NCBI GenBank assembly: GCA_009797885.1
Contig: WNKP01000006.1
Location: 248,001 to 312,000, forward strand
Direction of reading: 5' to 3'
Length of the DNA: 64,000 nucleotides
DNA from: Flavobacteriaceae bacterium GF1
Lineage (GTDB): Bacteria > Bacteroidota > Bacteroidia > Flavobacteriales > Flavobacteriaceae
Shown here: in pieces, positions 2,346 through 13,720 of the stretch
How positions within the stretch are numbered: position 1 is the first letter of the stretch
How the letters are laid out: each line of letters starts with the position of its first letter
Notes under the pieces: generated by a model
Told to the model about the DNA's origin: nothing
Database searches by the model: none
Seen by the model: the letters and a program-made list of their open reading frames with translations, nothing else
Position numbers and translations under genes: made by a program

Positions 2346-3409
2346 ATTTCCCAATCGTTGCTTTGCTCCTCATGTCGAAATGACTCTCTGGTTCAAATTG
2401 TCATTTCGAACGCATGTGAGAAATCTTATTATTGCGTGTTACAGGTATCAATGGTTATAATTGGATTTCTCAATCGTCGCTTCGCTCCTCATGTCGAAAT
2501 GACATTTGGGTCCTTTTTGTCATTTCGAACGTACGTGAGAAATCTTATGATTAATTGTTACAGGTATCAATGGTTATAATTGGATTTCTCAATCGTCGCC
2601 TTTGCTCCTCATGTCGAAATGACGATTGGGTCCTTTTGTCATTTCGAACGTACGTGAGAAATCTTATTATTGCGTGTTACAGGTATTGATAGTTCTAATT
2701 GGATTTCTCAATCGTCGCTTCGCTCCTCATGTCGAAATGACTCTCTGGTTGCAATTGTCATTTCGAACGCATGTGAGAAATCTTATGATTAATTGTTACA
2801 GGTATCAATGGTTATAATTGGATTTCTCAATCGTTGCTTCGCTCCTCATGTCGAAATGACTCTCTGGTTGCAATTGTCATTTCGAACGCATGTGAGAAAT
2901 CTCAAACCACCTCATGATTCAAAAACTCCCAATTCGAATTGAATGCTGAAATGAGTTCGTCTTTCTTTTCCCTACGCCATTTTTTTAATTCTTTTTCCCT
3001 TAAAATCGCAGATTCAATAGAATCAAAACCTTCATAATACAACAAATAGAAACAGTTGTATCTTCCTGCAAATGATTTCTTCGCATTTTGGCTGTCAAAG
3101 TAATGTTGGGAAAGTCTTTTTTGAATATCGTTTGTGACACCAATGTAAAGTGTGGTTTTGTTTTCGTTGGTGACGATATAGACAAAGTAGGAATGAAGCA
3201 TTCTTAAAGATAGTTTTTTTGAGATTTCTCAATTGTCGCTCTGCTCCTCATTTCGAAATGAATACCTGGTTCCGGTTGTCATTTCGAACGCATGTGAGAA
3301 ATCTTATTATTGAGTGTTACCGGTATTGATAGTTGTAATTGGATTTCTCAATCGTTGCTTCGCTCCTCATGTCGAAATGACTGTTGCGGTTCTTTTGTCA
3401 TTTCGAACC
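2345..3409. repeat. 119-bp-period array of 81-bp palindromic units
   Basis: Seven units start at 2345, 2464, 2583, 2702, 2821, 3223 and 3342, the last truncated after about 3409. Each full unit is 81 bp, and neighbours are separated by a 38-bp spacer, giving an exact 119-bp period. A unit begins GATTTCTCA and ends TGAGAAATC (9-bp outer stem), and holds an inner inverted repeat TCGAAATGAC / GTCATTTCGA around a variable loop, so each can fold into a long two-part hairpin. Spacers come in two alternating types (starting TTATTATTG or TTATGATTA). Between units five and six the spacer is replaced by 321 bp carrying a GIY-YIG gene. No cas genes are near and the spacers are not unique, so this is not CRISPR. 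It fills the gap between the serine hydrolase and mfd. Confidence 0.92.
2902..3201 (-). CDS. GIY-YIG family small nuclease, embedded in the palindrome array
   Basis: 99 residues, a complete minimal GIY-YIG domain of the YhbQ-like type. The N-terminus reads YFVYIVTNENKTTLYIGVT, giving the VYI...YIG signature, followed by the conserved Arg in NDIQKRLSQH and the catalytic-type Glu in ESAILREKELKKWRREKK. The family comprises metal-dependent DNA endonucleases or degenerate relatives; no target is known for this short class. ATG start at 3201. The stop codon begins at 2902, directly after palindromic unit five, and unit six starts 21 bp before the ATG, so the gene sits exactly where a 38-bp spacer should be. 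A paralogue lies at 10590-10898. The placement suggests mobility linked to the palindromes, which is inference. Confidence 0.85.
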   Translation of the reverse strand: MLHSYFVYIVTNENKTTLYIGVTNDIQKRLSQHYFDSQNAKKSFAGRYNCFYLLYYEGFDSIESAILREKELKKWRREKKDELISAFNSNWEFLNHEVV

Positions 3410-3483
3410 GAAACTGAACATCGTGAAATTGACCATGGGAAATCTGGATTCCATTGGGACACTTTCCAAAGAAGACGAATCCA

Positions 3484-6970: not shown

Positions 6971-7603
6971 TCAAATTCTCACCACTTCCCCCTCAACGAT
7001 TACAAAGACCTCATCGGTTTTTTTTGGTTTCAGGGCATGGTTGCCCGTAAATTCGCCAAAAGCGGGGAGTATAAGCTGGTTTTTTGTTTTAAAAAAACAC
7101 GGTAGCTTTAAGCGTTGTCGTCCAAAACCTTGCAAACGGACGGCAGGGTGTATATGTCCACAAAAATTGAAAAACCCGTCCCGTTCTTCAGGATGGTGGG
7201 TGAAAAGGAAATCGTCCCATTGTAATTCCTTAAAAACCGTTATCCCCAGGGCTTCGAATTTTTCGGGGGCGATAATATCATGGTTTCCCACCACCAAACT
7301 GATTTTGGAGGGTGTCTTCGCCACCCAATTTTCAAAAAAGTCCCACTCCCTATTGAAGGAGGAATGGAATAAATCCCCGAGAAAACACAAATGAAAAGGT
7401 TGAAAATGGCCTACAATTTTATCCAGTAAGAGAAAGTTTTTGTGGATGGCCTTCCGTGGGACTGCGGCTCCAAACTTTCTAAAATGGGCGACCTTGCCCA
7501 GATGTACATCACCAATGAGCAACAGGGATTTTTCTTCCCAGAACATACCGCCCAGGGGGTGCAGGATAAAGGATTGGTTTTTTATTAGTACGGTATGGGT
7601 CAT
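6971..7603 (-). CDS. pdeM: ligase-associated DNA damage response phosphoesterase/endonuclease PdeM
   Basis: 210 residues of the calcineurin-like metallophosphoesterase fold, with metal-binding motifs in order: GDVHLGK (about residue 32), GDLFHSSFNREW (about residue 96), VVGNHDII (about residue 127), FTHHPEE and GHIHPAV (about residues 155-171). This is the PdeM-type protein that in many bacteria is encoded with an ATP-dependent ligase, an Lhr-like helicase and a beta-CASP exonuclease, all found just upstream here. The family's in vivo substrate is not settled. ATG start at 7603. The start lies two bases from the end of an inserted DUF559 element, so its former close contact with lhr has been interrupted. 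The last codons overlap a palindrome at 6966-6980. Confidence 0.93.
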   Translation of the reverse strand: MTHTVLIKNQSFILHPLGGMFWEEKSLLLIGDVHLGKVAHFRKFGAAVPRKAIHKNFLLLDKIVGHFQPFHLCFLGDLFHSSFNREWDFFENWVAKTPSKISLVVGNHDIIAPEKFEALGITVFKELQWDDFLFTHHPEERDGFFNFCGHIHPAVRLQGFGRQRLKLPCFFKTKNQLILPAFGEFTGNHALKPKKTDEVFVIVEGEVVRI

Positions 7604-7604
7604 G

Positions 7605-8098
7605 AAACCACCTCTTTCTCCGCCGAAGGCGGATTCATTCTCCTCCTTAAGAAGGAGGAGAGCTTTTAGTTGTTTTAAAATTTTCAGAAATGGTTTTCAG
7701 GACGCCATCCAAATCATCGAAAACCAATTTGTTTTCAAATCTTAGAACGGTAAAACCCAACTTTTCAAGGCGTTTATCCCTTTTCAGGTCTTTTTCCATC
7801 GCCTCTGGACGGTTGTGATATTCACCGTCAAGTTCAATTATCAGTTTTTCGAAAGGGCAATAAAAGTCTACTACAAAGTTTTCTATGCTTTGTTGTCTTC
7901 TAAATTTTCTGCCTCGCAATTTACTCTTGGAAAGGTATTTCCAAAGAAATGCTTCTGCTGAAGTAGCATTATTTCTAAGTTCCTTCCGTGTTTCCTTTAG
8001 GTATTTATGATTATACATCAACCCAAAAATACAGACAAAATACTCCCCTCCTAATTTTAGGAGGGGTGATTCCAACGAAGTTGGAATCGGGGTGGTTT
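7605..8098. mobile_element. putative 494-bp DUF559 nuclease element with inverted hairpin ends
   Basis: The left end reads AAACCACC (7605-7612), then a hairpin TCCGCC-GAA-GGCGGA (7619-7633), then CTCCTCCTT-AAG-AAGGAGGAG (7640-7660). The right end, read on the other strand, gives the same order: AAACCACC (8098-8091), a 9-bp stem with a three-base loop (8068-8088), then a 10-bp stem CCCCTCCTAA/TTAGGAGGGG (8045-8066). The two ends are therefore inverted copies in architecture, though not in stem sequence. The only gene inside is a DUF559 nuclease. The element lies exactly between the stop codon of lhr (8097-8099) and the start codon of pdeM (7601-7603). No clear target duplication was seen. Mobility is inferred from structure. 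Confidence 0.65.
7647..8018 (-). CDS. DUF559 endonuclease-domain protein (Vsr-like PD-(D/E)XK fold)
   Basis: 123 residues from the ATG at 8018. The DUF559 core is plain: LRNNATSAEAFLWKYL near the N-terminus, GRKFRRQQSI, VVDFYCPFEKLIIELDGEYH (the D...ELDG catalytic-type pattern) and LGFTVLRFEN. The fold is related to very-short-patch repair endonucleases; activity and target for this small family are not established. An upstream in-frame ATG at 8075 would add 19 residues encoded by the flanking hairpins, which looks like read-through of the repeat rather than native protein. The last five residues (SSPPS) are likewise encoded by the palindrome at 7640-7660. The gene splits lhr from pdeM and runs in the same direction, so it is probably co-transcribed. 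Confidence 0.8.
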   Translation of the reverse strand: MYNHKYLKETRKELRNNATSAEAFLWKYLSKSKLRGRKFRRQQSIENFVVDFYCPFEKLIIELDGEYHNRPEAMEKDLKRDKRLEKLGFTVLRFENKLVFDDLDGVLKTISENFKTTKSSPPS

Positions 8099-10526
8099 AC
8101 TTCATCAAGATTTTGGTCATTCGTTTAATGCGATCGGCCAATTTTTCATTGGAGAGTTTTTCCCGAAGCCTATCGGTGATCAATGGAAAGGAAAATGGAG
8201 TTGCATTTTGACATTGCTTCCAAACGATTTCTTGCGTAGCGATACGTTCCAGTGCCATTCGCAATCGGCCTTCTTCCAATTGATGTTCAAAGGTTTCCGT
8301 AAACGCTTGTTTAAAGAGGAGGTTTTCCGGTTCGTAATCCCGGAAGACATCAAACAAGAGTTGGGAACTGCTTTGAAGGTGCTTCATTTTTATTCCTTTT
8401 TCCGGATAGCCGGTAAAGACCATACCACTGATAACGGCAATGTCACGAAATTTTCTGCGGGCCATTTCATTGGAATTCAGACTTTTTTGCAAATCGGGGA
8501 GCATGTATTCGGAAGTAAACAGATTATTGTCTATTACCGCTTGAATGTCAATGGGTTTATCGGATAACATCTCAAAGCCATAGTCGTTAAAAGCCAATGA
8601 GCAAGTGATAGGGGAGAGCAGGCCTATGCGGTACGATAGCAAACTGCTCATAGCTTCGTGTACGGCACGTCCTTCAAAAGGATAAAAAATATGGTGGTAG
8701 CCGTCCCTTGTCTTAAAGGTTTCAATCAAAAATTCACTGGGTTTGGGAACGCTACTTTCCTCTCTTTGTTTCTCAAAGATATGTTGGAGTGCTACCAGTT
8801 CCTTGCTAAGATTGGCTTCGGTAGCCGCCTTGTACAGCTCCAATCGCAACAACTTGGACATTTCGGAAGAAAAACTCAATCGACCACCGGCCCAAGCAGG
8901 GACCTTATTGGTGCGTTTTGTGGAATTGCGCACCTGTACCTTCATGCTACGAATGCGGATAAATTCCAAATTCCGTCCGGCAAATACAAATACGTCCCCA
9001 GGATTGAGTTTTGAAACAAAATATTCTTCAATGGAACCGATATATCCCCCTTTTTGATAATGTACGGAAAGGTTGGCGTCGCCCACAATGGTCCCTATCT
9101 GAAAACGATGTCTCATCGCAATGCCTTTGTTGTTTACCTTGAACCTTCCATCCGCTTCCACTTCCACTTTTTTGTATTCATCGTAGCTTTTTAAGCTTTG
9201 GCTGCCCATAACCAAAAAATTGAGCAACCATTGCCATTCCTCTTCGGTAAGACCTTGGTAACAAAAGGTCTGTTTAATTTCAGGAAGGATTTCATCGGGA
9301 TAAAAGCCATCGGAAACGGCCAGGGTGGTCAAATATTGGATGAGCACGTCATAACTGTTTAAAAACGGTAAGCGGTCCTCAACAGCATTTTCCTTTACCG
9401 CAACCTGAAGTGCGGAAGCCTCGATCAGTTCAATGGCGTGGGTAGGTAAAAAATAGATGACACTTGTTTCCCCAGGGCGATGACCGCTGCGTCCGGCACG
9501 CTGTAAAAAGCGGGCCACCCCTTTTGGCCCGCCTATTTGGATGACGGTTTCCACCGGTGCAAAATCCACCCCCAAATCCAAACTGGAGGTGCAGACCACG
9601 GCCTTTAAACTTTCGTTTCGTATGGCCTGTTCCACCCATATGCGCGTTTCTTTGTTCACACTACCATGGTGCATGGCCATTTCACCGGCAAACTCCGGGT
9701 AACGTTCCAATATTTTTTGAAACCAAATCTCGCATTGACTACGTGTGTTGGTAAAAAGGAGTGTTGTTTTACTCTTTTTTATGATGGGGATAACATCATC
9801 CAGTAAATGCAGGCCCAAATGCCCACGCCATGGGAAGGTTTCCATCTGTTTTGGGATGATACTGTTGACCTTGATTTTCTTTTTGAGATTGGCCCTTACC
9901 AAAACCGAATTCTCCATTTCGGGAGAAGTGGGGCCTAGAAGTACTTGGCGGGCTTGGGGTAAATTGCCGATTGTGGCCGAAATGCCCCAAATACGAAGGT
10001 CTTTGCATACGGTCTTTAGCCGGGAAAGGCCCAACTCCATCTGGATTCCCCGCTTGGTCCCCAAAAGTTCATGCCACTCATCAACAACGATGGCCGAACA
10101 GTCTTTAAATGTTCTGTCATACGCTTTTGAAGCCAACAATAACTGTAGGCTTTCTGGGGTAGTAATCAGTAAATCGGGCATAGTGGTTCGTTGTCGTGCC
10201 CGCTCTTTTGTAGTAGTGTCCCCTGTTCTGATCCCTACGGTCATTGGGAGTTCCAAATCGGCCACTATACGTTCGGCAGATTGTTTTATTTCTTGGGAAA
10301 GGGCGCGCAAGGGGGTGATCCAAACCGCTTTCAATCCTTTTTTATGCTTGGTTTTGTATTCAGGATGGTTTTTAATGTAATTCAAGACAATGGGAAACCA
10401 AAGGGCATAGGTTTTTCCACTTCCCGTAGGGGCGTTCAATAATCCGTGTTTGCCCTGTAAAAAGGCCGTCCAGGTCTCTTTTTGGAATGCATGGGGTTTC
10501 CAACCTTGCTGTTGGAACCAGGTCAA
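8097..10526 (-). CDS. ligase-associated DEXH-box DNA helicase (Lhr-like)
   Basis: 809 residues. Superfamily 2 helicase motifs appear in order: Walker A APTGSGKTYALWFPI (about residue 36), WITPLRALSQEI, TTPESLQLLL, motif II VVDEWHELLGTKRG (about residue 148), ISATIGN, and motif VI QRAGRSGHRPGE (about residue 350). The remainder is the winged-helix and C-terminal part of the Lhr core. This is the helicase partner of the bacterial ATP-dependent ligase/PdeM/exonuclease repair set. The only usable start is TTG at 10526. The reading frame stays open for 15 more codons upstream, which read like family N-terminus (KQLFEIA), but there is no ATG, GTG or TTG before a TAA at 10572-10574. The original start may have been lost when the GIY-YIG gene entered upstream. 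Confidence 0.93.
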   Translation of the reverse strand: MTWFQQQGWKPHAFQKETWTAFLQGKHGLLNAPTGSGKTYALWFPIVLNYIKNHPEYKTKHKKGLKAVWITPLRALSQEIKQSAERIVADLELPMTVGIRTGDTTTKERARQRTTMPDLLITTPESLQLLLASKAYDRTFKDCSAIVVDEWHELLGTKRGIQMELGLSRLKTVCKDLRIWGISATIGNLPQARQVLLGPTSPEMENSVLVRANLKKKIKVNSIIPKQMETFPWRGHLGLHLLDDVIPIIKKSKTTLLFTNTRSQCEIWFQKILERYPEFAGEMAMHHGSVNKETRIWVEQAIRNESLKAVVCTSSLDLGVDFAPVETVIQIGGPKGVARFLQRAGRSGHRPGETSVIYFLPTHAIELIEASALQVAVKENAVEDRLPFLNSYDVLIQYLTTLAVSDGFYPDEILPEIKQTFCYQGLTEEEWQWLLNFLVMGSQSLKSYDEYKKVEVEADGRFKVNNKGIAMRHRFQIGTIVGDANLSVHYQKGGYIGSIEEYFVSKLNPGDVFVFAGRNLEFIRIRSMKVQVRNSTKRTNKVPAWAGGRLSFSSEMSKLLRLELYKAATEANLSKELVALQHIFEKQREESSVPKPSEFLIETFKTRDGYHHIFYPFEGRAVHEAMSSLLSYRIGLLSPITCSLAFNDYGFEMLSDKPIDIQAVIDNNLFTSEYMLPDLQKSLNSNEMARRKFRDIAVISGMVFTGYPEKGIKMKHLQSSSQLLFDVFRDYEPENLLFKQAFTETFEHQLEEGRLRMALERIATQEIVWKQCQNATPFSFPLITDRLREKLSNEKLADRIKRMTKILMK

Positions 10527-10589: not shown

Positions 10590-10898
10590 TTAAAAAGATT
10601 CTTTACTCCCATCAAACCAACTTTCTGACAAATCATTCCATTCCGGATTTATCGAGTTGATTAGTTTTTCCTTTCGTTTTCTGTTGCCTGCTTTCCATTG
10701 CCGCTCTCTTTTAAAGGAATCCTTGATAGTATCAAATTCTTCAAAATAGACCAAAAGGGTACAATTGTATTTTTTGGTGAAAGCGTTTTTGTATTTACCA
10801 TTCTTATGCTCGCTGACCCTTCTTTCCAAATTATTTGTAGCACCGACATACAGTACAGTTTTGTTTTTATTGGTAAGGATATAGCAGTAGCCTTTCAT
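10590..10898 (-). CDS. GIY-YIG family small nuclease, inserted in the repair cassette
   Basis: 102 residues, a paralogue of the protein at 2902-3201 with the same architecture: GYCYILTNKNKTVLYVGAT (GIY-YIG signature), NNLERRVSEH with the conserved Arg, then FTKKYNCTLLVYFEEFD and the Glu-bearing helix KDSFKRERQWKAGNRKRKEK. ATG start at 10898, stop at 10590. It lies between the ATP-dependent ligase and the lhr helicase, in the same direction, with about 60-100 bp on each side. Unlike the first copy, no palindromic units flank it. The domain suggests a DNA endonuclease, but no function is known for this class. Its position next to a damaged lhr start suggests a fairly recent insertion, which is inference. 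Confidence 0.83.
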   Translation of the reverse strand: MKGYCYILTNKNKTVLYVGATNNLERRVSEHKNGKYKNAFTKKYNCTLLVYFEEFDTIKDSFKRERQWKAGNRKRKEKLINSINPEWNDLSESWFDGSKESF

Positions 10899-10994: not shown

Positions 10995-12674
10995 TCATTC
11001 CGCCTTAGCGGAATTCGGGATCAGTGATTTTAAATCTTCCAACGAATTCGCTTCCTCAATTTTTTTGTCCTTACGCCATCTTAAGATCCTGGGGAACCGT
11101 GTGGCCACACCACTTTTATGTCTTTTGGAAAAGGCAATGCCCTCAAAGGCAATCTCAAACACATGATGTGGTGTTACGCTGCGTACAGGACCAAAGCGTT
11201 CCAGGGTATTCCTTTTTATCCAGGCATCAACTTCCTGAAACTCCTTATCGGTCAGACCGGAATATGCCTTTGCAAAAGTGACCAGTTCCCGTTCCCCTTT
11301 TTCATTTGCTTTCCAAAGGGCAAAGGTGTAGTCGGTAAACAAATTACTTCTTCGACCATGCCCGCGCATGGCATACGTTAACACGGCGTCAATGGTCAAT
11401 GGGTCCACTTTCCATTTCCACCAGTCCCCTTTTTTACGCCCTACTTGGTACGGTGAATCCAAGCGTTTTACCATTAAACCTTCACTGTGTTTGGCTCTGG
11501 AGACCTCCCGTTCTTGGGCCACCTCGTCCCAGGAGTTGAACTGCATCCGCTCGGAGAGGAGTAACGGTAAGTCACTTCCACTGCCTTCGATCACGGACGA
11601 ATAAAGATTTTCCAGAAGTCGCCTCCGTTCCACAAATGGTTTATCCCGAATGTCCGTTCCATTCCATTCCAACAAATCATAGGCTTTTATGATTACCGGG
11701 GTTTTCTGCAAAAGCGATTTTGAGACCGTTTTCCGGCCGATGCGAGTCTGGAGGTCATTAAAGGTGCCAATAGTCCCATTGGGATAGGGAAGTAATTCGC
11801 CATCGAGTACTGTCCCATTGGGGAGTATTCCAATAAATTTTTGAAACTCTGGGTATTTATCCGTTACCAGTTCCTCCCCTCGGCTCCAAACAAACAATTG
11901 ATTGTTCCTAATAATAAGTTGTGCGCGGATGCCGTCCCATTTGTGTTCCACGGACCATTGGGTCACATCCCCCAACTCCCGGGGAAGGTCCTCCAGGGCA
12001 TAGGCCAAATAAAAGGGATAGGGTTTTGAGAGAAAATCACCTTCGTTTTCTTCCAATACCAGATTTTGGAATGAGATGGTACCGGGGTCCCAATTGCCCA
12101 TGAGTTTATAGGCCAAAATGTCTTCATCCACACCAGTGGCTTTGGAAAGGGCCTTGGTCATTAATTTTTGGCTTACCCCAATTCGAAAACCACCTGTAAT
12201 CAATTTTGTAAATACGAAACGGCCATAGTAATCCAATTGCTGCCAATTTTCAAAAAGATATGCCTTTTTATCCTCGTCCGTTTGTTTTTTCAACCATATC
12301 ATTTCTTCCAAAAAATGGGTCAAATCCTTATCCGTGGAATGTTCGTTAGATGGGACGACGAGGGCAATTGTTTCGGCCAGATCGCCTACAATATGATAAC
12401 TTTCCTCAAACAACCACAATGGGATTTTTGCGAGTTCGGAAGCCCATTCCCGCAATAAGGTGGTATTGACCGGTCTGGGCGGACGCCGATGTGAAAGGAT
12501 GGCAATGGTCCAGACTTTATCGGTATCCGGGGCCATCAAAAAATAATTGGCCAATGCCTGTACCTTGACATTGGTCTTGTTGGTGCTATCCAAAGTCTTG
12601 ATGAGTTGGGAAAAGCCCCCCATCCCCCGAAGGGGGGGTATCGGGTCTTTTTTATTTTTATTGGGGTTTTTCAT
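10995..12674 (-). CDS. ATP-dependent DNA ligase of the bacterial repair cassette
   Basis: 559 residues. The nucleotidyltransferase core is clear: motif I EHKWDGIRAQ with the adenylated Lys (about residue 243), the ERRRLLENL segment, motif IV EGLMVKRLDS and motif V WWKWK, followed by an OB-fold with motif VI-like RFPRILRWRKDK. It seals nicks using ATP, distinct from the essential NAD-dependent LigA, and belongs with the Lhr helicase, PdeM and exonuclease in this locus. The ATG at 12674 overlaps the exonuclease stop as ATGA. The first 17 residues (including IPPLRGMGG) are encoded by an inserted palindrome; the family-like sequence begins at FSQLIKTLD, so the ATG at 12623 may be the older start. 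Confidence 0.94.
   Translation of the reverse strand: MKNPNKNKKDPIPPLRGMGGFSQLIKTLDSTNKTNVKVQALANYFLMAPDTDKVWTIAILSHRRPPRPVNTTLLREWASELAKIPLWLFEESYHIVGDLAETIALVVPSNEHSTDKDLTHFLEEMIWLKKQTDEDKKAYLFENWQQLDYYGRFVFTKLITGGFRIGVSQKLMTKALSKATGVDEDILAYKLMGNWDPGTISFQNLVLEENEGDFLSKPYPFYLAYALEDLPRELGDVTQWSVEHKWDGIRAQLIIRNNQLFVWSRGEELVTDKYPEFQKFIGILPNGTVLDGELLPYPNGTIGTFNDLQTRIGRKTVSKSLLQKTPVIIKAYDLLEWNGTDIRDKPFVERRRLLENLYSSVIEGSGSDLPLLLSERMQFNSWDEVAQEREVSRAKHSEGLMVKRLDSPYQVGRKKGDWWKWKVDPLTIDAVLTYAMRGHGRRSNLFTDYTFALWKANEKGERELVTFAKAYSGLTDKEFQEVDAWIKRNTLERFGPVRSVTPHHVFEIAFEGIAFSKRHKSGVATRFPRILRWRKDKKIEEANSLEDLKSLIPNSAKAE
12616..12638. repeat. GC-rich palindrome inside the ligase N-terminal codons
   Basis: A C-run, then CCCCC-GAA-G-GGGGG (stems at 12624-12628 and 12632-12638), in frame with the ligase and encoding part of PIPPLRGMGG. 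The composition is unlike the surrounding gene and similar to the second palindrome 60 bp away. Confidence 0.7.
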
Positions 12675-13720
12675 AATGATACCTCATCGTTTTTAACTCC
12701 CTCCCCTTTGGGGAGGGCTGGGGAGGGGCTTTTATCTTCCTCCTCGCCATATTGGGTATGCTCGGTTCTTGCATCGTAACCCAGCTCCCGCAAATACCTG
12801 GAAAAGATTTCGGTATAACCATGGGTGCAGATTACTTTTTCTGCCGTGGTGTCCTTTATGGCCTTCAAAAGTCCCGGCCAATCACAATGATCGCTAAGTA
12901 CAAAGCCTTTATCCACAGCACGTCTTCGTCTGGCGCCTCTAAAGGCCATCCATCCGCTGGCGGTCCCGGTCACAAATGGGGTCATTTTTCGAATCCAGGT
13001 ACTGCCGTGTGCCGATGGTGGTGCCAGTACAAGGCTCCCCTTTAGGTCTTCTTTTTTAGTGTCCTTGGTCACCAATTCCGTTTGATGAAAATCCGCAAAC
13101 TGCCGGAGGACCTGGGTCATATTTTCAACCGCTCCATGGGTGTAAATTTTACCAATGGAAGGGTCCAATAGTTTTAAAAGGCGCTGTGCCTTTCCCAGCG
13201 AATAGCCAAAAAGTACGGAGGTTTGCCCATTGGCCCTATTGGTGGCCCACCACTCATTAATGTCTTTTTTAACCTCTTCCTGTGGTCTCCAGAGAAATGC
13301 GGGCAATCCAAAGGTGCATTCCGTGATAAACGTGTGGCACTTAACGGATTCGTAGGGTGTGGCCAAGCCATCGTCCTCAATTTTGTAGTCCCCCGTAAAG
13401 ACCCATACCTCACCTTTATGTTCCACACGGATCTGAGAAGATCCCAAAATGTGCCCTGCGGGGTGCAGACTGAATTTTACGCCTTTCACACTAAAGGTTT
13501 CCCCCCATTCTTTTCCTGAAATGGCAATGGTTCCCAAACGATGTTTTACGATAGGGACGTTTTGATGGTGGGTAATATAGTTTTTATGTCCCCAACGACT
13601 GTGATCGGCATGACCGTGGGAAATTATGGCCTTGGATACCGGCCGCCAGGGATCCAAGTACACATCTGCAGCTTCGCAATAAATGCCCTTGTCCGTAAAA
13701 CGTAGAAGAGGAGGGTTCAT
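12671..13720 (-). CDS. ligase-associated DNA damage response exonuclease (beta-CASP metallo-beta-lactamase)
   Basis: 349 residues from the ATG at 13720; an upstream TTG at 13738 is less likely because family similarity starts at NPPLLRFTDKGIYCEAADVY. The metallo-beta-lactamase metal motif is SHGHADHSRWG (about residue 35), followed by HPAGHILGSSQ, FTGDY, a beta-CASP region with GYSLGKAQRLLKLL, and the C-terminal VLSDHCDWPGLL and VICTHGYTEIF. It is the nuclease member of the four-gene repair cassette and first in its transcription order. The last 20 or so residues come from a GC-rich palindrome. The stop overlaps the ligase start as ATGA, consistent with translational coupling. Confidence 0.92.
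   Translation of the reverse strand: MNPPLLRFTDKGIYCEAADVYLDPWRPVSKAIISHGHADHSRWGHKNYITHHQNVPIVKHRLGTIAISGKEWGETFSVKGVKFSLHPAGHILGSSQIRVEHKGEVWVFTGDYKIEDDGLATPYESVKCHTFITECTFGLPAFLWRPQEEVKKDINEWWATNRANGQTSVLFGYSLGKAQRLLKLLDPSIGKIYTHGAVENMTQVLRQFADFHQTELVTKDTKKEDLKGSLVLAPPSAHGSTWIRKMTPFVTGTASGWMAFRGARRRRAVDKGFVLSDHCDWPGLLKAIKDTTAEKVICTHGYTEIFSRYLRELGYDARTEHTQYGEEEDKSPSPALPKGEGVKNDEVSL
12699..12717. repeat. GC-rich palindrome inside the exonuclease C-terminal codons
   Basis: CCCTCCCC (12699-12706) pairs with GGGGAGGG (12710-12717) around TTT, followed by a partial repeat CTGGGGAGGGG to 12729. It is read in frame as the exonuclease tail SPSPALPKGEGVK, a peptide typical of translated Bacteroidetes palindromes. 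Confidence 0.72.

Follow-up and report, generated by a model that had tools for sequence, protein, structure and literature searches.

How did a 494-bp unit holding one small nuclease gene come to lie between lhr and pdeM in Flavobacteriaceae bacterium GF1, and what might its two elaborate ends be? The unit (outer edges 7605 and 8098) sits in a stretch of 64,000 nucleotides (contig WNKP01000006.1, positions 248,001 to 312,000), which we call the window and whose positions we use throughout. We think it probable that the unit belongs to a widespread class of minimal mobile elements, each composed of a single Vsr-like DUF559 gene and two ends, mostly inverted, that have the intrastrand triplex architecture of BoxC/PIT repeats. 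Comparison of sequences documents the ends, their pairing with DUF559 genes, the covariation of their strands, gene-less solo copies, filled and empty sites, in-frame copies and conservation of the active site. That the unit is mobile or insertional in some way is very probable, and is well supported by in-frame copies whose sites are uninterrupted in relatives.

The unit and its triplex-type ends

A preliminary description of this DNA had placed the unit between the lhr stop codon and the pdeM start codon with neither neighbour disrupted, and the coordinates bear this out: its two outermost bases on the lhr side overlap the lhr stop codon (8097-8099), its other edge is 1 bp away from the pdeM start codon (7601-7603), and both genes are intact. 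Reading and folding likewise agree with the description of each end as a small stem with a three-base loop followed by a CCTCC-type stem, the two ends being inverted; the fold z-scores of the ends range from -2.4 to -6.4 (both strands, RNA parameters). It was also correct that the unit lacks a transposase, since its open reading frame (ORF) matches DUF559, weakly MTES_1575, and nothing else. The features are as follows.

7605 to 7661, minus strand: pdeM-side end, a purine-type intrastrand triplex motif (7606-7661, perfect, arm 10, spacer 23)
Within 7605 to 7661: pdeM-side third strand, AGAGGTGGTTT on the minus strand, AAACCACC on the plus strand
7619 to 7633: pdeM-side small stem, TCCGCC-GAA-GGCGGA
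7639 to 7661: pdeM-side main stem, TCTCCTCCTT-AAG-AAGGAGGAGA
7647 to 8018, minus strand: DUF559 (PF04480) nuclease gene, 123 aa from the ATG at 8018
8045 to 8098, plus strand: lhr-side end, a purine-type intrastrand triplex motif (8045-8096, perfect over arm 8, spacer 22)
8045 to 8066: lhr-side main stem, CCCCTCCTA-ATTT-TAGGAGGGG
8068 to 8088: lhr-side small stem, GATTCCAAC-GAA-GTTGGAATC
8089 to 8098: lhr-side third strand, GGGGTGGTTT
6971 to 7603, minus strand: pdeM (phosphoesterase), neighbouring gene, intact
8097 to 10526, minus strand: lhr (helicase), neighbouring gene, intact

Each end runs in the order pyrimidine arm, loop, purine arm, spacer, mirror of the purine arm, and in the mirror strand G lies opposite G and A or T opposite A, which is the plan of a purine-type triplex. 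On the lhr side the purine arm TAGGAGGGG is mirrored, after the small stem, by GGGGTGGTTT, with one T in the arm misfitting; on the pdeM side the purine arm AAGGAGGAGA is mirrored by the third strand AGAGGTGGTTT. The main stems differ between the two ends, and each third strand matches its own stem. The earlier proposal that selection acts on structure is supported, the structure being better called an intrastrand triplex than two hairpins. The shared AAACCACC is indeed present at both edges in inverted orientation (7605-7612 on the plus strand, 8091-8098 on the minus strand). At each end it falls within the complement of the third strand; the idea that it is a family-wide tag was dropped in favor of its belonging to the local third strand. 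The tip of the lhr-side small stem (8068-8088) reads CCAACGAAGTTGG in the window and CCAACTTCGCTGG in the G006 copy (L019) in plus-strand view, as if flipped.

A finder that demanded perfect triplets and an arm of at least 6 (or, in a looser setting, at least 5), with the reversed sequence as control, reported three motifs in the window, namely the two unit ends and 12699-12728, and none in the reversed window. A pyrimidine arm, a purine arm and a mirror third strand of at least 6 nt are thus present at 7606-7661 and 8045-8096. With arms of at least 5 the window gave eight motifs and its reverse six, which is at chance level, so that an arm of 5 has little meaning by itself. Further stretches of this genome, 358,506 bases taken non-randomly from two contigs that carry DUF559 copies, gave eight motifs in the stricter setting and four in reverse; the ends of an insert in recG are the sole two motifs there with an arm of at least 7. 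We also considered an RNA element and dropped it, as purine mirror symmetry points to DNA (cf. PMC4666352).

The ORF of the unit belongs to PF04480, DUF559 (E 1.4e-33; 115.5 bits against a cut-off of 20.6). As listed it spans 7647-8075 on the minus strand, reaching a TTG at 8075; the ATG at 8018 is our choice of likely start. Its last codons fall within the end hairpin. The protein is short (123-142 aa) with a single domain and has all of E41, D70, E81, D83 and H87. It is related to the DUF559 protein of PDB 3hrl and to the homing endonuclease I-Bth0305I (PDB 3r3p), by sequence (E 5.4e-6 for I-Bth0305I) and by fold (E 1.2e-4 for I-Bth0305I, from a predicted structure with mean pLDDT 80.4). A DUF559 protein of Caulobacter, VsrA, has been proposed as a Vsr-like repair endonuclease (PMC12907096).

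DUF559 genes and triplex ends in other genomes

The supposition that the flanks of other DUF559 genes would share such ends holds for many of them. We drew 118 copies (116 loci; some copies are fragments, and 114 count as full length) from 11 genomes of the genus and 199 of the family, this genome's copies included. DUF559 occurs in all 11 genus genomes and, in the family, in 89 of 199 genomes at E <= 0.001 or 64 of 199 over 75 bits. From 147 profile hits we dropped 16 scoring 60 or less as well as the overlapping loci L033-L055; family matches above 75 bits numbered 102, of which the sample takes in 95, and two full-length genus matches (G005:C121 and G004:C1:2400990) were left out. The copies are kin, and the counts below are not independent events. 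With an arm of at least 6, the triplex motif lies on the left of 66 copies, on the right of 57 and on both sides of 44, as against 0, 2 and 0 for the reversed flanks; with an arm of at least 5 the figures are 80, 78 and 61, as against 4, 3 and 0. At ordinary ORFs, with the longer arm, they are 0, 0 and 0 of 281 in the sampled stretches of this genome and 2, 2 and 0 of 94 in the family loci. The two ends are oppositely oriented in 38 of the 44 copies that have both, or 52 of 61 with the shorter arm. A strictly defined C-rich hairpin within 200 bp of DUF559 gave a similar picture: 65 copies on the left, 51 on the right and 41 on both sides of the 118, compared with 3 of 235 random windows of the same loci and 0 of 236 shuffled flanks. 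Ordinary ORFs had it once upstream, twice downstream and never on both sides among 242 in this genome's stretches (2, 3 and 0 of 74 in the family loci).

The relation between strands is also specific to each end. The third strand is a perfect mirror of its own arm in 100 of 140 C-rich hairpins; when arms were swapped among copies, perfect mirrors numbered 10.8 on average and 20 at most in 200 shuffles. A direct repeat of the stem arm in place of a mirror fared far worse (13 perfect cases versus 100 of the 140) and was dropped. The two ends of one copy have 5.5 stem letters in common versus 4.96, slightly above chance (58 copies; maximum of 500 shuffles, 5.29). Spacers of 0-6 are found in 81 of 145 DUF559 end motifs; those of our unit are 22 and 23 nt.

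The coupling of nuclease and ends that had been proposed for this locus holds, and its reach is far wider than supposed, taking in several phyla and in-frame insertions in housekeeping genes. From a scan of genome contigs we took 80 named loci, the best of 552 and many of them from other taxa. Among these, 54 of the 79 whose flanks were long enough for the hairpin count have a strict C-rich hairpin to the left, to the right or on both sides, as against 4 of 185 control windows, and the triplex motif is found on the left of 37, the right of 26 and both sides of 13 of the 69 used for that count, which were those with a match starting at 2501, L224 being left out (reversed: 1, 2 and 0). Loci bearing the motif include ones from Acaryochloris (L212), Bradyrhizobium (L235), Chloroflexota (L234), Zixibacteria (L245, L263), Desulfobacterales (L215) and Patescibacteria (L226, L229, L237), so the pattern reaches Cyanobacteria, Chloroflexota, Bradyrhizobium and others. 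In a Gastranaerophilales locus (L241, 1787-4417) DUF559 lies in frame within the PriA helicase (Pfam), with a triplex motif on the left by the finder and C-rich hairpin sequence on both sides by eye. The unit has no nucleotide match among plasmid records; relatives of the Bradyrhizobium DUF559 protein occur in 63 of 72,556 such records, and viral contigs hold mostly weaker DUF559 relatives.

Escherichia coli K-12 offers a copy of particular use. Its DUF559 gene is ycjD, between sapF and fabI (L445, 1374-2095), and 174 bp past ycjD lies a triplex motif, a BoxC repeat, whose 36 letters are all identical to those of TM_ECO no. 9 (Table 1 of Holder et al. 2015, PMC4666352). A 52-base query around this motif was found at a median of 16 places per genome and in 5,375 of 5,426 E. 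coli genomes, and ycjD with its flanks was at least 80% covered in 3,365 of the 5,426. Three strains without ycjD (L446, L447, L449) have an efflux operon at sapF, and there is no clean empty site there. A TM_ECO triplex has been demonstrated in solution by circular dichroism and nuclear magnetic resonance (PMC4666352). Triplex (BoxC) repeats are described as orphans since the 1990s, conserved in many genomes and linked to rearrangement, with no mobility gene found nearby (PMC4666352). Given how often DUF559 is framed by triplex motifs, it becomes a concrete candidate for the mover of BoxC repeats, and ycjD makes this testable at the bench. We found no coupling of DUF559 with palindromes or triplexes in open-licence literature, judging by the titles and opening lines of abstracts of openly licensed papers that name DUF559. 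The coupling would accordingly be of a new kind, although the part that the nuclease plays in it is something we infer from sequence comparisons.

Filled, empty and gene-less sites

The empty sites that a mobile unit would leave in relatives, with lhr beside pdeM and no DUF559, do exist. The lhr-pdeM site is filled in two of the 11 genus genomes (G000 and G006, whose pdeM genes are 99.5% identical); it is without DUF559 in G004 (97% identity; genes about 90 bp apart), G010, G001, G008 and G009, and other sequence precedes pdeM in G005, G007, G002 and G003. In two of the gaps that lack DUF559 (G004 and G008; L165, L169) there is a different palindrome, GTCATTCCTGCGAAAGCAGGAATCC or a variant. 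The exo-lig-lhr-pdeM operon is a repeated landing place: another genus genome (G002) and four genomes from other genera (G017, G084, G124, G154), five in all, have DUF559 between lig and lhr. The same lig-lhr gap holds a GIY-YIG gene in certain genomes: one (10590-10898 in the window) fills it in G000, G004, G006 and G008 (72% identical), and DUF559 takes this place in G002 and the four other-genus genomes.

Some DUF559 copies lie inside genes and in frame. Host identity was established by Pfam with one example each for RecG, MetH, LeuRS, HemD, RnpA and histidinol dehydrogenase (hisD, L082), and by flanking match for the others. In recG, DUF559 stands in frame between WHK and PPHI in two of the 11 genus genomes (G000, G004), in their sole close recG match. 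The gene is uninterrupted in eight of the 11 (in G006 it is 96% identical over the matched C-terminal part); in G001 there is a short in-frame stretch, WHKGAQSSAEIGGVSLPPH, which resembles the two insert borders joined and is perhaps the scar of an insert. As eight of the other nine members are uninterrupted and the ninth has only this short stretch, the insert of G000 and G004 is more easily read as a gain. In metH an in-frame DUF559 is present in G003 and G004, and the gene is uninterrupted in nine of 11; in leuS it precedes TTRPDT in four of 58 query-matched genomes (G012, G033, G046, G060), and there are DUF559 fusions ahead of hemD and rnpA. The turn of LeuRS that takes DUF559 carries other in-frame palindromes or short repeats in other genera (L418, L414, L392), for example GTCATTCCGAGCGAAGCGAAGGAATC, and is perhaps a hotspot that tolerates insertions. 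When recG, metH, leuS, hemD, rnpA and hisD hosts were scanned with Pfam, DUF559 and host domains were found but no splicing domain; presumably the insert is synthesised as part of the host protein.

Free-standing copies are spread over many places: 80 loci fall into 48 context groups (ORFs of at least 90 aa within 1.6 kb being compared), and pairs up to 90% identical stand in different contexts. In a tree of 113 domains (105 columns) our unit falls in a supported group of 34 free-standing copies. The copies in recG (7), metH (6), hemD (6), lhr-pdeM (2) and rnpA (2) each form one supported group, those of lhr-pdeM and rnpA being pairs of close species; the 13 leuS copies were not resolved as one group, and with recG, metH and another fusion they make up a supported group. 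The nuclease is conserved. Its four catalytic residues (E41, D70, E81, D83) are intact in 111 of the 114 full-length copies and in all 26 in recG, metH and leuS. Of 15 pairs, 11 have dN/dS of 0.03-0.27 and two are saturated; L008/L016 show no amino-acid change, and L001/L019 have a dN/dS of 0.51 on three changes, two of which are E81K and D83N of the G006 copy. That copy is probably dead, judging from these substitutions, and a stop codon interrupts the DUF559 copy of L031.

The ends also occur without the gene. The window has one such copy at the junction of the exonuclease and ligase genes:

12615 to 12729, no strand assigned: gene-less solo copy, one end with arm 8 (12699-12728) and an inverted second with arm 5 (12617-12638)

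Read in frame, it contributes to the C-terminus of the exonuclease and to the N-terminus of the ligase (MKNPNKNKKDPIPPLRGMGG). It is present in G000, G004 and G006 and absent from G010, G009, G001 and G008, where the ligase starts MKQF or MKRF, and from G002. In L016 (500-1500; G004:C1:3981074-3982074) a tandem array of end motifs alternating with truncated 5' pieces of DUF559 precedes an intact copy. On the scale of genomes, CCCTCC-N3..12-GGAGGG occurs at 0.97 per Mb in the 64 family genomes with DUF559 (over 75 bits) and at 0.33 per Mb in the 135 without (reversed control, 0.17 versus 0.12 per Mb; no phylogenetic correction). The density is higher with DUF559 yet nonzero without it, which indicates that the repeats go with the gene and also occur alone.

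In the window a GIY-YIG ORF (about 2905-3205, minus strand) lies inside a repeat array (2375-3410) with a spacing of 119 bp (CATTTCGA ... GAGAAATC), and two CATTTCGA with the same 119-bp spacing accompany another GIY-YIG gene, which lies at the end of a contig (L421). This is possibly a second pairing of a nuclease with palindromes.

How the unit might move, and what it resembles

We favor the following scenario for the DUF559 element. Each end, when in single-stranded DNA such as the lagging strand or a repair intermediate, would fold into a triplex that marks the boundary of the element. It would act as folded single-stranded DNA because purine-motif triplexes are stated not to form in RNA (PMC4666352). 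The nuclease would recognise the triplex ends or cut at or near them, at a new target, or at both, and the element would be copied into the break by host repair. Selection would remove insertions that break genes and spare those that fall between genes or, in frame, within a tolerant loop; a copy in frame in an essential gene would be expressed with its host, and a deletion that breaks the frame could not remove it. Solo copies would have arisen by deletion or be non-autonomous forms. That the unit is moved by its own nuclease through its triplex ends is a possibility to which we give somewhat less than an even chance on these comparisons. More tentatively still, BoxC/PIT-type repeats across bacteria could be the ends and relics of a single unrecognised class of mobile elements, moved by a DUF559 (Vsr-like) nuclease that recognises folded single-stranded triplex DNA. 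Its members would enter essential genes in frame and stay there as nuclease domains of housekeeping enzymes, and E. coli K-12 ycjD plus its BoxC neighbour and the inverted type A/type B BoxC pairs would be living examples. Homing mainly at fixed sites as the usual route seems unlikely. Our estimates for a mobile unit, for movement by its own nuclease and for homing overlap. If the scenario is true, there is a mobile element with three-stranded DNA ends, and the presence of nuclease domains in LeuRS, MetH, RecG and PriA, or fused to HemD, without a splicing device would be explained.

Several observations weigh against it: (i) 57 of the 118 copies have a recognisable triplex at one end at most, even with an arm of at least 5, four of six metH copies and both rnpA copies lack the full pair, and at e.g. 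L011, L017, L105, L116 and L142 neither side has a strict hairpin; (ii) C-rich hairpins are also found without DUF559, with at least three in 15 of the 135 DUF559-free genomes, and E. coli MG1655 has 23 TM_ECO motifs, one of which we tied to a DUF559 gene; (iii) at recG no target-site duplication was seen, and the insert replaces some 9 bp of target, judged by eye; (iv) in recG and metH the divergence of the insert rises with that of the host, and vertical inheritance at a site is therefore likely for many pairs; (v) the main stems of the unit are terminator-like (4 sites versus 0.6 expected), the lhr-side one on the minus strand, along lhr transcription, with the tail AGTATTTTGT; and (vi) there is one weak Y1-transposase-like match in this genome (25 bits), on another contig.

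The second of these points leads to the rival that survives best, which we nevertheless hold to be improbable: BoxC-type repeats are spread by another agent and provoke breakage, and DUF559 was captured between two of them by recombination without being the mover. Triplex motifs and C-rich hairpins without DUF559 fit this idea, as do the five inverted type A/type B pairs of E. coli, reported with no gene named between them, and the rearrangement-prone nature reported there for TM loci (PMC4666352); the efflux operon found at that place in three strains without ycjD fits as well. On the other side, the GIY-YIG genes of this genome have neither the C-rich hairpin nor the triplex motif at any of 11 loci (one right flank has just 129 bases), the motif being rare at ordinary ORFs too. 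Moreover, the ends are mostly inverted, DUF559 is framed in unrelated phyla, and each in-frame site has one clade.

Distinctly improbable, in our judgement, is a free-standing EDxHD homing endonuclease that would spread through gene conversion after cutting alleles that lack it, its triplex ends being incidental or serving to keep flanking expression undisturbed. The sequence and fold relation to I-Bth0305I, the single clade at each in-frame site, patchy occupancy, and decay of single copies as in a homing cycle (E81K and D83N in G006, the stop codon of L031) are all as this would have it. The 48 context groups among 80 free-standing loci exceed what fixed sites would lead one to expect, and homing alone leaves solo copies and third strands that covary with their stems unexplained.

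A RAYT/IS200-like Y1 (HuH) transposase might move the palindromic ends in trans, as proposed for REPs, and we regard this as highly improbable. Y1_Tnp matches do occur in seven of the 11 genus genomes, being weak in this genome and strong in G007, where the gene has three stop codons, and TnpA_REP is reported to process single-stranded REPs (PMC8266576); but G002, G003, G005 and G010 have DUF559 units and no Y1_Tnp match, and no GTAG or CGTC tag stands beside the stems of our unit (by eye).

We give very little credence to an ordinary Vsr-like repair gene, for which the proposal for Caulobacter VsrA (PMC12907096) and the terminator-like score of both main stems speak, with flanking hairpins that are terminators or mRNA stabilisers, because the same kind of ends lie within translated recG, leuS and hemD frames, where a terminator would shorten the gene, because a terminator has no use for a mirror third strand and purine-motif triplexes are said not to form in RNA (PMC4666352), and because DUF559 sites differ between close relatives; intrinsic terminators accordingly rank low.

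Among known systems, a classical insertion sequence was rejected, as there is no transposase in the unit and no duplication seen at recG. The likeness to RAYT/REP pairs drawn in the preliminary description stands in the sense that the unit works like one: in REPtrons and REPINs, too, a small nuclease gene is framed by palindromes that are also found solo, as inverted dimers and in some cases within genes (PMC3733652). Membership fails, since the enzyme is DUF559 rather than a HuH tyrosine transposase, the ends are triplex motifs without GTAG or CGTC adjoining the main stems, and, unlike REPs, copies of the unit are few in the sampled part of this genome. Inteins resemble DUF559 copies in placing a nuclease domain in frame within a housekeeping enzyme at a recurrent site, and were rejected because none of the six host proteins has a splicing domain (Pfam). 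Palindromes translated in frame in a host gene are found in the recG, metH, leuS and hemD copies and in the exonuclease/ligase solo copy. Rickettsia palindromic elements are likewise inserted in frame, and we know of no nuclease gene for them. They are palindromes inserted in protein genes (PMC3733652), and differ in sequence and host group.

With I-Bth0305I the unit has a related catalytic domain, patchy occupancy and copy decay in common; it differs in having no visible intron or intein, many insertion sites and triplex ends. EDxHD homing endonucleases are described as long and multi-domain with a DNA-binding region (PMC3943268), whereas the protein of the unit has one domain. The closest resemblance of the ends is to BoxC/PIT/TM repeats, which also consist of a hairpin and a mirror third strand and which in E. 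coli K-12 also occur as pairs, one motif of each of two differing types, in inverted orientation and separated by about 100 bp (PMC4666352), much like the solo copy here. Holder et al. searched for motifs with both loops of 1-6 nt (PMC4666352), and the spacers of our unit, at 22-23 nt with a small stem, fall outside this range; its ends are BoxC-like and are not filed as BoxC/PIT/TM members. Where those repeats are described as intergenic orphans with no mobility gene found (PMC4666352), the ends studied here frame a nuclease gene and are also found in coding frames.

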